Positions 8,868 to 36,822 of a stretch of 64,000 nt of DNA are shown in pieces. The translations under genes and the position numbers were made by a program. The notes under the pieces are model-generated. The model had not been told where the DNA came from, searched no databases, and was given only the letters and a program-made list of their open reading frames with translations. Each line of letters starts with the position of its first letter. Positions within the stretch are counted from its first letter, which is position 1. Source of the DNA: Candidatus Tenderia electrophaga (GTDB lineage Bacteria; Pseudomonadota; Gammaproteobacteria; Tenderiales; Tenderiaceae); NCBI GenBank assembly GCA_001447805.1, contig CP013099.1, positions 2,861,181-2,925,180 of the forward strand, written 5' to 3'.

Positions 8868-10544
8868 CTACGACCCGGGTAGCACAATGTGAAAAAGCGC
8901 ACCTCGAGTTGGTGGCGTTTCCGCCCAGATCCGCCCACCGTGGGCTTCCACGATCGAACGGCTGATGGCAAGCCCTATCCCCATACCGTCTGTCTTAGAC
9001 GTTTCAAACGCCTGAAATATCTTTTCGAGCATCGCCTGATCCATACCGGCCCCGTTATCCTGCACGGTCAGCTTGACACCTTCATCCACTAATGAAGCAA
9101 GAATATCAATCCGTCGGCGCTCGCCGTTAACCTGGCGCAAGGCGTCAATACTGTTGCGCAATAGGTTGATCAACACTTGCTCGACATGCAGGGGGTCAAC
9201 GCAAATCAGGGGCAAGTCTTCGGCATATCCCGCATGTACGGCAACCTGTTCGTCCATTAGCAAGGGGTTCACCAAGCCGAGCGCGCCATCCACGAGTGCG
9301 GATACCGCCAGCGACTCTTTACGCAATTTGCCGTGGCGCGCGAATTCACGCAAATGTTGAATGACCTTGCTGCTGCGCTTCACCTGCTCACGCGATACGG
9401 CAAGCAAGTGCTTTAACTCATTCCGGTCGCAGTCTTGCTTTTCTGTCAAGCGCTGTGCTGCATAAATGAAGTGATCGATAGCCATCAGCGGCTGATTGAG
9501 TTCATGCGCCAGGGTCGATGTCAACTCTCCCATGGCGTTCAGACGACCGGTATGGATTGCCGCTTCGGAATGCTTGCGCACCTCCTGTTCGGCCTCCTTG
9601 CGAGCACTGATATCAGCGGTCATGCCGACCAGCCGGATCAGCTTGCCGCGGCCATCAAAAAAGCCCCGCCCGGATTCTTCAAGCCAGCGCACCCCCCCGC
9701 CGGGCGGCAAAAAGCGATACTCGATATGATAGGCATCCTGCGCCGGTGTCAGGTTGTATATATTATCGAGAAAACGCTCGCGGTCCTCGGGGTGGATGTG
9801 GGCAAAAAACCATTGGCCGGTCTCGTGTTCAGACGCCACCGTCATCCCCGGTCTGGACATGGCTTCGATTTTGCCCGAGTGCTTGACTTCATCCGTCGCC
9901 GGATCCCACTCGAAAGCCTTCATACGCCCGACTTCCGCCGCTTGTTTAAGGCGTAGTTCGCTTTGCCGCAGGGCGATGTTTCGCTCCTCCACTTCAGCCT
10001 CAAGCCGTGAACGCATATCACGTAATTCAGCTTCGATTTGTTTTAGCCGGGAAACATCTTCGACGGCTATATTAATACCGACGACAGCGCCAGCGCGGTC
10101 CCTCAACGGCACATAATGTTCGACAAAAATGTGCTTGCCGCAGCGAACCTCGCATTCGAGTGCCGGCTCCCCCGTACGGATCACACGATAGAGCAGGGCT
10201 TCGCTTTGCTCGGCGCGATCCGGGCAAATCTCGCGTAGACCATGCCCGATATGCGCGGCGATCGGAATACCATGCATCTGCGCCAACCATTGATTGACAC
10301 GGCTGAAGCGCAGGTCGGCATCGAGCACGGCCAACCCTACATGGGCCGATGCATAGATTTGTTCCAGCCCCTCCAGCCCGTCCTCTTGTTGCAATGGACG
10401 GCTGTGCGTCTTCGCCTTGGGGTGACTGGAACCGGATTGCTGCGGATATAAGCGGGCGGAAGCGCCGACCCCTGATGCGGCAAACAGCTTCTGTAAGGAC
10501 ACGCCTGGTCGTGCCGCGCGGGGGTTGTCATTACCCTGACTCAT
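8868..10544 (-). CDS. FixL-like PAS sensor histidine kinase
   Basis: This 558-residue kinase has no evident membrane segment, so it is probably cytoplasmic. It contains a PAS domain at about residues 55-170, a coiled stretch, a second PAS (PAS_3 type) at about 205-315, a dimerisation and phospho-acceptor domain with His347 in LAHELNQPL, and a catalytic ATPase domain with the N box around Asn464, DNGAGM near 496 and GMGIGL at 520-525. The layout is that of FixL, StyS and TodS-type kinases that pair with FixJ-like regulators. I see no haem-binding His in the FixL context, so the signal is open. The ATG at 10544 has AGGGAG upstream; a GTG at 10556 is too close to that site. Confidence 0.93.
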   Translation of the reverse strand: MSQGNDNPRAARPGVSLQKLFAASGVGASARLYPQQSGSSHPKAKTHSRPLQQEDGLEGLEQIYASAHVGLAVLDADLRFSRVNQWLAQMHGIPIAAHIGHGLREICPDRAEQSEALLYRVIRTGEPALECEVRCGKHIFVEHYVPLRDRAGAVVGINIAVEDVSRLKQIEAELRDMRSRLEAEVEERNIALRQSELRLKQAAEVGRMKAFEWDPATDEVKHSGKIEAMSRPGMTVASEHETGQWFFAHIHPEDRERFLDNIYNLTPAQDAYHIEYRFLPPGGGVRWLEESGRGFFDGRGKLIRLVGMTADISARKEAEQEVRKHSEAAIHTGRLNAMGELTSTLAHELNQPLMAIDHFIYAAQRLTEKQDCDRNELKHLLAVSREQVKRSSKVIQHLREFARHGKLRKESLAVSALVDGALGLVNPLLMDEQVAVHAGYAEDLPLICVDPLHVEQVLINLLRNSIDALRQVNGERRRIDILASLVDEGVKLTVQDNGAGMDQAMLEKIFQAFETSKTDGMGIGLAISRSIVEAHGGRIWAETPPTRGALFHIVLPGS

Positions 10545-10683
10545 CGCTCGCCACACTCCCTATACGACACCCAGTAGCACTTCCACCCGCTCATAATTGA
10601 CCTTTCACGTGCTCGACGCCCGCCGGGACACACGTTAGTAGTTGACCAGTTTGCTATGGTATTTTGACTATAGTTCAAACCTC

Positions 10684-10694
10684 AGGTCATTACC
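10684..10694. promoter_or_regulatory. candidate regulator half-site upstream of the kinase gene
   Basis: The sequence AGGTCATTACC resembles AGGTATCATTACC at 8111-8123, within the palindrome before the diguanylate cyclase gene, with two bases missing from the centre. It lies about 140 bp before the kinase start, in the only long untranslated stretch of this signalling block. A role in autoregulation by the FixJ-like protein is conceivable. The match is short and could be chance. Confidence 0.25.
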
Positions 10695-10811
10695 AGTCCT
10701 AAATCAGGGGATTTGTACCGCCATCCAGACCTGTGGCTGCGCCTCGGCGAGACGGCCGGCCCGAGCGATGCGATCGCTGTCACTGCGAGCACGTGCGCGG
10801 CATCGGTGCCC

Positions 10812-34283: not shown

Positions 34284-35336
34284 TTATTCGTCAAACAGAT
34301 CTAAGGCGTCCTGATGTGCCTGATCCGCCACCGCCGGCGGGGCCAGGCCGAAATGTTCGTAGGCCTGACGCGTCACCACCCGGCCGCGCAGGGTGCGCAT
34401 CATGAAGCCCTGTTGGATTAAATACGGTTCCAGCACATCTTCGATGGTGCCGCGCTCCTCGCCGATGGCGGCCGCCAGACTGTCCACCCCCACCGGGCCG
34501 CCGTCAAATTTCTCGAGAATGGCCATGAGCAGCTTGCGGTCCATCATGTCGAAGCCGTTGCTGTCCACATCCAGCAAATCCAGCGCCCCCGCCGCCACCC
34601 GGGCGCTGATGCGGCCGTCGGCCTTGACCTCGGCAAAATCGCGCACCCGGCGCAACAAACGGTTGGCGATACGCGGCGTGCCGCGCGAACGGCGCGCAAT
34701 CTCCACCGCGCCGTCGCGTTCGATCTCCACATTGAGGATCTGGGCCGAGCGCTCGACGATGGCGGTGAGGTCGGCGCTGTTATAGAACTCCAGCCGCTGC
34801 ACAATACCGAAGCGGTCGCGCAGGGGCGAGGTGAGCAAGCCGGCGCGGGTGGTGGCGCCCACCAGGGTGAAGGGCGGCAGGTCCAGCTTGATGGAGCGCG
34901 CCGCCGGCCCCTCGCCGATCATGATGTCGAGCTGGTAATCCTCCATGGCGGGATAGAGCACTTCCTCCACCACTGGACTGAGGCGGTGAATCTCGTCCAC
35001 AAAGAGTACATCGTGGGGCTCCAGATTGGTGAGCAGCGCCGCCAGATCACCGGGACGCTCCAGCACCGGGCCGGAGGTATGACGCATGGCCACGCCCATT
35101 TCATGGGCGATAATATTGGCCAGGGTGGTCTTGCCCAGGCCGGGGGGGCCGAAGATCAGGGTGTGATCCAGCGCCTCGCCGCGTTTTTTGGCCGCCGCAA
35201 TGAAGACCTCCATTTGTTCGCGCACGGCGGGTTGGCCGACATAGTCGACCAGCTGCTTGGGGCGGATGGCGCGATCGATGGCCTCCTCTTCCTTAGAGGG
35301 TTGAGCGGCTCCGACGAGGCGATCGGTTTCTATCAT
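34284..35336 (-). CDS. ruvB: Holliday junction branch migration ATPase RuvB
   Basis: RuvB is the hexameric motor that drives branch migration of Holliday junctions with RuvA. The 350-residue protein has the Walker [10 protein letters not shown], Walker B FVDEIHR, sensor TTRAG, and the winged-helix end [15 protein letters not shown]. It follows ruvA by 36 bp on the same strand. Confidence 0.98.
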
Positions 35337-35372: not shown

Positions 35373-35969
35373 TTAACCCGCCGCCGCTTTCAGGGCCTGA
35401 CGGATGAGCTCCTCACTGCCCAGGCCGTCGCGGCTGACCCCGCGCACCATGCGGCTGGCCTCATTGGGCTTGTAGCCCAATGCCACTAAGGCGCTGACCG
35501 CGTCCGCCAACGGATCATCGGCCTTGGGGGCCGCGTCGGCAGGTCGTGGCAGGCTAATCTCACTCTTGCCGTCGAGCTTGTCGCGCATCTCGACGATGAG
35601 GCGCTCGGCGGTCTTTTTGCCGACCCCCGGCAGGCGCACCAGGCTGGCCACATCGTTTTCCTGTATGCAGCGGGCGAAGGCGTCGAAGGACATGCCCGAC
35701 AGAATGGCCAGCCCCATCTTGGCGCCGACGCCATTGATCTTGATCAGATTGCGGAAAAAGCCGCGCTCGGCCTCGGAGGCGAAACCGAACAGCAAATGGG
35801 CATCTTCACGCACCACCAGATGAGTATGCAGCAGCACCTCGGCGCCGATCTCGGGCAGGGCGTAAAAGGTGCTCATGGGTGCCTCCAGCTCGTAACCCAC
35901 ACCGTTGACGTCCACCAGCAATTGAGGCGCGCGTTTGAGGATTAATTTGCCGCGCAGGCGACCGATCAT
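35373..35969 (-). CDS. ruvA: Holliday junction DNA helicase subunit RuvA
   Basis: RuvA binds the four-way junction and loads RuvB. The 198-residue protein has the N-terminal OB domain ([15 protein letters not shown]), two helix-hairpin-helix motifs ([13 protein letters not shown] and [16 protein letters not shown]), and the flexible C-terminal domain that contacts RuvB ([15 protein letters not shown]). The ATG at 35969 starts directly on the conserved MIG block. An element of repeated hairpins separates it from ruvC. Confidence 0.98.
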
Positions 35970-36025: not shown

Positions 36026-36290
36026 AAAATCCCCCCTAGCCTTTATGCCCTTCAGGGTGCCCCTTTGCAAAGGGGGGAACAAGGGCGTCATCGAGCCGAC
36101 CCGGCCGCCATTCCCCTGCGTCTCCCTTTGTAACGGGGGCAACAACCATGCCGCCCGCTCCCATCTTTGTGATGGGAAAAATGACCACGCCGCCTGATCC
36201 AACCTTTGTACAGGGGGAAATGACCGTGCCATCTGCGCCCCCCTTTGAAAAAGGGGCACCCTGAAGGGCATAAAGGCTGGGGGGGATTTT
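36026..36290. repeat. 265-bp hairpin element with terminal inverted repeats, between ruvC and ruvA
   Basis: The left end (36026-36077) and the right end (36238-36290, reversed) are nearly identical over about 50 bases: both run AAAATCCCCCC, AGCCTTTATGCCCTTCAGGG, then TGCCCCTTT and AAAGGGGGG. Within the first 41 bases only one position differs. Between the ends lie short hairpins built on CTTTG with flanking C- and G-runs, centred near 36068, 36130, 36168, 36208 and 36247; the last four are about 39 bp apart. No transposase and no clear target duplication is seen. It reads as a non-coding mobile or palindromic repeat element (MITE-like). It splits an operon that is otherwise tightly packed. 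Confidence 0.85.
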
Positions 36291-36318
36291 ACAAACTGCT
36301 TCATCAAAGTCATCCGTT

Positions 36319-36822
36319 TCATTCTCTCCCGTTCCCGGCAATTTGTTTTAACGTGTCCCGGGTATGACGATGGCACAGGGCGCAGGCCAGGGCATCGGCG
36401 GCGTCCTGTTGCGGCAGGCCGGGCAGATTGAGTATCGCCCGCACCATGAACTGTACTTGGGCCTTGTCGGCATGACCGCGGCCGACGAGGGCCTGTTTGA
36501 TCTGGGTCGGCGAGTATTCGAATACTTCCAAGGCCTGGGTGACCCCGGCGCAGATAGCAGCGCCGCGCGCCTGCCCCAGCTTGAGGGCGGAGTCTACGTT
36601 GTTTTTGACGAACACCTGCTCGATGGCCATCTCATCGGGACGGTGCTCGGCGACGATTTCAGCCACCGACTCGAAGATCGATTTCAGCCGCTCGGGCAAA
36701 GCCGCACCACTGACCCGAATGCAACCGCTGGTGACATAGACCAGCTGGCCCTGGGCAATCTCGATAACGCCGAAACCGGTGACACGGGAACCTGGATCGA
36801 TCCCGAGGATGCGCAGTGTCAC
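36319..36822 (-). CDS. ruvC: crossover junction endodeoxyribonuclease RuvC
   Basis: RuvC resolves Holliday junctions by paired cuts. The 167-residue enzyme has its acidic active site in LGIDPGSRVTGFG, MAIEQVFV and QQDAADALACALCH. The start is a GTG at 36822 (GTGACACTGCGC), which fits the family N-terminus MTLRILGIDPG. It lies upstream of ruvAB with the hairpin element between, and about 110 bp after yebC. Confidence 0.97.
   Translation of the reverse strand: MTLRILGIDPGSRVTGFGVIEIAQGQLVYVTSGCIRVSGAALPERLKSIFESVAEIVAEHRPDEMAIEQVFVKNNVDSALKLGQARGAAICAGVTQALEVFEYSPTQIKQALVGRGHADKAQVQFMVRAILNLPGLPQQDAADALACALCHRHTRDTLKQIAGNGRE

Follow-up and report, generated by a model that had tools for sequence, protein, structure and literature searches.

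Why does the ruvC-ruvA junction of Candidatus Tenderia electrophaga hold 349 bp of DNA, and where did this DNA come from? In the window, the whole 64,000-nt stretch of the genome that was analysed here, Pfam matches place ruvC at 36319..36822, ruvA at 35373..35969 and ruvB at 34284..35336, all on the reverse strand. The ATG of ruvA lies 349 bp from ruvC, while in most relatives it overlaps the last codons of ruvC, and a composite palindromic element of 265 bp (36026..36290) fills most of the gap between these DNA-repair genes. The earlier note had placed the element between these two genes, where little spacing is expected, and the comparison bears this out. The host genome is a complete Tenderia genome (Gammaproteobacteria) of 3.76 Mb in two contigs. 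The relatives with RuvC at 83-87% identity are Candidatus Tenderia and uncultured Chromatiaceae MAGs, and the genus is placed in Tenderiales.

Two Tenderia species have the element at ruvC-ruvA, and eight other genomes of the family lack it there. Tenderia sp. BWSM_60 (G003; L048/L129) carries the same element at the same junction (361 bp). The other eight family genomes that gave a ruvC match all have ruvC running directly into ruvA or overlapping it, which supplies the element-free junction that the earlier note had proposed looking for in a relative. The overlap is 4 bp (ATGA) in six of the eight; in the other two, the script detected no start motif, and the printed sequence opens immediately with the ruvA start region. 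The ruvC-ruvA overlap was lost through the element, and by Pfam the RuvC beside it remains intact with an altered tail. Because two Tenderia species are filled and the junctions of eight relatives are element-free, the insertion is most simply placed in the common ancestor of the two species, where a spacer would have replaced the overlap. The locus is therefore a clean natural experiment, with the overlap removed in two Tenderia species and the insertion missing in eight relatives.

The structure agrees with what had been described from the sequence alone, namely inverted ends of about 50 bases, mismatched once in the first 41, and interior hairpins of which the last four are about 39 bp apart. 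A repeat search gave arms at 36026-36077 and 36239-36290, each of 52 nt, 90% complementary and 161 nt apart. By direct count, position 12 holds the sole mismatch of the first 41 positions, and five more follow up to position 53. The interior matches itself at 56% at an offset of 39, compared with at most 37% at other offsets, which gives a hairpin period of 39 bp. Three degenerate tandem hairpin repeats of this length were located on the reverse strand at 36120..36236 (units 36198-36236, 36159-36197, and 36120-36158). When the element strand was folded against 200 shuffles, none of the shuffles was as good (z of -11.3 as RNA and -13.6 as DNA).

Each arm is itself compound, with a local C/TTT/AAA/G hairpin split by an exact 18-bp insert, a feature that the earlier note did not mention. 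The left arm (36026..36077, forward strand) consists of AAAATCCCCCCTAGCC, the insert, and CCCCTTTGCAAAGGGGGG, and the right arm (36239..36290, reverse strand) is its inverted copy. The insert forms a nested micro-hairpin, TTTATGCCC-TTCA-GGGTG, at 36042..36059 on the forward strand, and the identical 18-mer lies in the right arm at 36257..36274 on the reverse strand. Local terminal hairpins are found at 36060..36077 (CCCCTTTGCAAAGGGGGG) and 36240..36255 (CCCCTTTGAAAAAGGG), both on the forward strand. Rfam matched the element to no curated RNA family up to E 1, and a scan for short intrinsic terminators gave one match against 1.2 expected, which is not above chance. A weak promoter-like match (9/12, a consensus match only) lies at the element's edge (36286..36313, reverse strand). 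We also considered the element as coding DNA. The 136-aa frame across it has no Pfam match and was discounted because such ORFs are expected in stop-poor C/G runs.

Alignment with the BWSM_60 orthologue locates the differences between the two copies. The window copy has an exact 18-bp insert, TTTATGCCCTTCAGGGTG, extra in each arm, and the gap in the right-arm alignment is exactly 18 bp. Both window arms hold the identical micro-hairpin at the same point, and the sister copy has it in neither. The BWSM_60 interior contains one more 39-bp repeat and is cleaner (self-match of 77%), and the lengths balance (265 = 268 - 39 + 2x18). Between the two species, identity is 68/69 in the arms outside the insert, 125/160 in the interior, and 83.7% in the surrounding DNA. 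The 18-mer may have been gained by one arm and then copied to the other, either by repair templated on the hairpin or by gene conversion. Such arm-to-arm copying through the hairpin would best explain why the inserts and their loops are identical in both arms, and it fits the better match of the arms than of the interior. This two-step history is read from one sister comparison, and the 18-mer may instead have been lost from both BWSM_60 arms.

The window element belongs to a dispersed family whose copies lie mostly between genes. The copy counts, based on pattern searches and on retrieved parts of the genome, come to about 45 sites in the host genome, with 39 two-ended copies, mostly of 102-131 bp. 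Searching for CCCCTTTGNAAAGGGG with at most one mismatch returned 93 strand-hits, against 0 for the reversed control. About 40 of the 45 clusters lie outside called ORFs, by a rough ORF call made without a gene finder. The shared design has AAATCCCCCCTAACCCCCCTTTnAAAGGGGGG on one side, its reverse complement on the other side, and variable DNA between. Three sub-forms were told apart by their C/T pattern, and some composites contain internal tandem arrays that enlarge them, or recur head to tail. The earlier note had expected many copies, conserved at their ends and variable inside, if the element belonged to a mobile repeat family, and this is what the genome search returned. The opposite picture that it had drawn, a single copy with the same sequence in all relatives, does not describe a family of about 45 sites with eight element-free junctions.

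The core hairpin, CCCCCCTTTn(1-4)AAAGGGGGG, was found in 18 of 274 sampled gammaproteobacterial genomes, with the host the richest at 49 copies. Within the family, it is common only in the host (G000), G002, and BWSM_60. Presence also varies at further orthologous sites: BWSM_60 has no element at the site of one host element (L181), and the host has none at the site of one BWSM_60 element (L231). The flanks are too diverged for the exact element ends to be read, and these comparisons stop short of an empty-site junction at base resolution.

Individual copies were also observed in a range of settings. At genome positions 2646749-2647544 (L190), six head-to-tail units follow one another with a period of 135 bp, where G002 has a single composite. 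Near genome position 1841340 (L017/L182), about ten tandem copies of GGGGATTTATAAACTAGC come directly after an element's end and look like an amplification of its last bases. In G009, a family repeat that contains the 18-mer variant lies in frame inside priA (L043, about 1500-1630) and adds a proline/glycine-rich stretch to the linker before the helicase domain. A family composite likewise lies in frame within a 532-aa host ORF of unknown function (L189, genome 2623893-2624081), and the corresponding G002 region has a related element. Four viral contigs from IMG/VR (L240-L243) carry the basic unit, some in tandem arrays, and phages may therefore move the repeat between hosts.

The micro-hairpin is also dispersed as a repeat in its own right, sited at CC(C/T)^C and mostly within palindrome arms. 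About 20 copies were identified in the host genome by exact pattern, and a few more with one mismatch. Their loops vary (TTCA, GCGA, TGT, GAATTTC, and others), and adjacent units often have the same loop (e.g., GCGA twice or TTTA twice), which is what local conversion or duplication would produce. In the stem, position Y8 and its partner R covary, with few varied cases behind the result (Fisher 1.4e-4 for 47 contexts and 0.03 for 24 unique inserts). Three orthologous sites are polymorphic for the micro-hairpin: ruvC-ruvA itself; L046/L180, where BWSM_60 has the 18-bp insert and the host does not; and L230/L184, where it is in two neighbouring host units and in neither of those of G002. It was observed in at least four distinct host palindromes across three bacterial families. 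In other families of the class, G487 has 11 copies and G236 has 10 loose-pattern matches, at least seven of which have the repeat's form, and the host palindromes there are CCCTCACCCYAACCCT^CTCCCGGAGGGAGAGGG and CTCCCC^CACGAGTGGGGAG or CTCCCC^CATTTATGGGGGAG. BWSM_60 has one copy at the arm end of GGGCTTCACGAAAATCGTGAAGCC^C, and a few copies (L301, L306, L188) stand outside any evident stem. In plasmid records, the 18-mer was in neither host repeat, and in phage records it was absent from the second host repeat. Most viral-contig matches of the loose 18-mer pattern fall outside palindromes and look like chance.

In-silico excision of the micro-hairpin left a perfect helix of 7 bp or more spanning the junction in 29 of 47 contexts, which are not independent because most come from two host families, compared with 2.6% for shuffled flanks. 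A shifted-junction control reached 31%, so part of the helix signal comes from the palindromic surroundings. At genome positions 657203-658070 (L178), two inverted palindrome copies lie about 0.8 kb apart, and each has two successive micro-hairpins, of the GCTC..GAGTAC and GCCC..GGGTGC forms.

The best explanation overall, which we consider probable, is that a REPIN-like composite palindrome with a nested 18-mer was inserted at ruvC-ruvA. Two inverted terminal units (AAATCCCCCCTAACCC^CCCTTTnAAAGGGGGG) stand on either side of a short tandem array of decayed 39-bp hairpins, and the composite would have arrived as non-coding repeat DNA via a process without target duplication. Single-strand transposition in trans and replication template switching are candidates, since both would leave no duplication. 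The earlier note had called the element MITE-like and mobile; dispersed copies and presence or absence at orthologous sites support mobility, while a target duplication and a linked transposase did not appear. A true MITE would be a non-autonomous element derived from a DDE insertion sequence, with terminal inverted repeats, and moved by the transposase of that sequence. The long inverted ends, conserved beside variable interiors, and the differences at orthologous sites would suit such an element, but with exact ends assumed at AAATC...GATTT, 35 non-redundant two-ended copies showed no target duplications beyond chance at any boundary shift of 0-4. The genes checked between family units are ordinary (thiamine synthase/NUDIX, glycosyltransferases, and tRNA methyltransferase) and include no transposase, and ends that bear their own hairpins are untypical, which makes a MITE highly improbable. 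No transposition intermediate or mobilising enzyme was found for the composite. It is also unlikely that the element was selected as a transcription attenuator or mRNA-processing hairpin setting the ruvC:ruvAB ratio. Its exceptionally stable fold and its location within an operon are in keeping with such a role, as is the 99% conservation of the arms between two species, against a drifted interior, although arm identity is also expected from repeat homogenisation. Eight relatives with the same operon lack the element, the same repeat adjoins dozens of unrelated genes, and the terminator scan remained at chance level.

For the insert itself, we tentatively propose that TTTATGCCC-n(3-8)-GGGTG is a mobile, ultra-small hairpin of Gammaproteobacteria, which at 17-21 bp would rank among the smallest known and which targets CC(C/T)^C in the stems of other palindromic repeats, and that the ruvC-ruvA element shows its entry into one arm and its copying to the other; we hold this as a possibility that is more doubtful than assured. 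The insert may otherwise be an old variant of one repeat family, not independently mobile and spread only by whole-repeat duplication, conversion, and horizontal transfer, an account to which we give slightly less than an even chance. Most Tenderia copies do sit in one family and at one position, and neighbours have the same loops. Against this, G487, G236, and G001 (L255, L261, L263, L284-L312) carry the same 18-mer in different palindromes, and one repeat (L177, L178) holds two successive inserts, each at its own CCC^C point. If the micro-hairpin is truly mobile, an 18-base non-coding DNA with a specific target would be spreading among unrelated palindromes across bacterial families, and it would offer a compact test system for REP-like DNA that multiplies without an obvious transposase.

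As for the consequences in the host, the REP/BIME literature suggests that the main physiological effect would be the loss of ruvC-ruvA translational coupling, in which case ruvA would have to start from its own ribosome site. The hairpin in the mRNA might also modulate read-through or stability, as in REP/BIME elements. By this analogy, the element may affect ruvAB expression.

Among known systems, the composite is neither a demonstrated MITE nor a RAYT-REPIN, though it is built like a REPIN, and we regard it as a new family of a known kind. It shares terminal inverted repeats, a non-coding nature, and dispersal with MITEs, and differs in that no target duplication was found and, between units, no parent transposase. 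REPINs, or REP doublets, and BIMEs are extragenic pairs of inverted short palindromes (Bertels and Rainey 2011, PMC3116915). Like these, the family has two inverted short palindromes and a spacer, occurs extragenically in many copies, singly and in tandem clusters, and folds as one hairpin. Unlike them, its arms hold a nested second repeat, its interior can expand as a tandem array, and it does not flank a RAYT gene. Of the four Y1_Tnp genes that we considered for RAYT linkage, three have no C-run motifs within 1.5 kb, and the fourth (L171) has a different repeat. That gene, an IS200-like Y1 transposase gene at genome positions 10482-10808, has an inverted repeat family of its own (AATAAAAGGGGTCAAAGCCCTTT) on either side and is likely a RAYT with its REPs. 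A literature search for the repeat sequences returned no relevant match.

Tags at the palindrome foot and the Rickettsia palindromic elements (RPE) are both described in PMC3733652. The GTAG/CGTC tag is absent from the family, in which the conserved foot is AAATC / TAACCC, and this separates it from REPs and, for CGTC, from RPEs. As with RPEs, copies of the repeat can lie in frame within protein genes, namely in the priA gene of G009 and in one ORF of the host genome, but these are a minority and most copies are intergenic.

The 18-mer has its own parallels. The Neisseria dRS3/NIME repeats combine an inverted repeat of about 20 bp with a variable core and flank larger repeats in mosaic arrays. 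The 18-mer is alike in size, in its variable core, and in its mosaic with larger repeats, and unlike in being nested inside an arm rather than bordering a unit; we know of no sequence relation between the two. Cyanobacterial small dispersed repeats (SDR) are reportedly 21-27 nt long with a conserved hairpin. The 18-mer repeat, at 17-21 bp, is smaller, belongs to Gammaproteobacteria, and targets CC(C/T)^C inside C-rich palindrome arms, yet it is likewise a very short repeat whose hairpin is conserved, whose stem shows compensatory changes, and which sits precisely within other repeats. SDR5, in a passage of PMC4390886 that cites it, interrupts HIP1 precisely between its third and fourth bases. 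Here, precise insertion is seen in the exact orthologue difference at ruvC-ruvA and in the polymorphism at two other sites, and compensatory change in the Y8-R covariation, from few varied cases. By description rather than by sequence, the nested 18-mer thus appears to resemble a cyanobacterial SDR.
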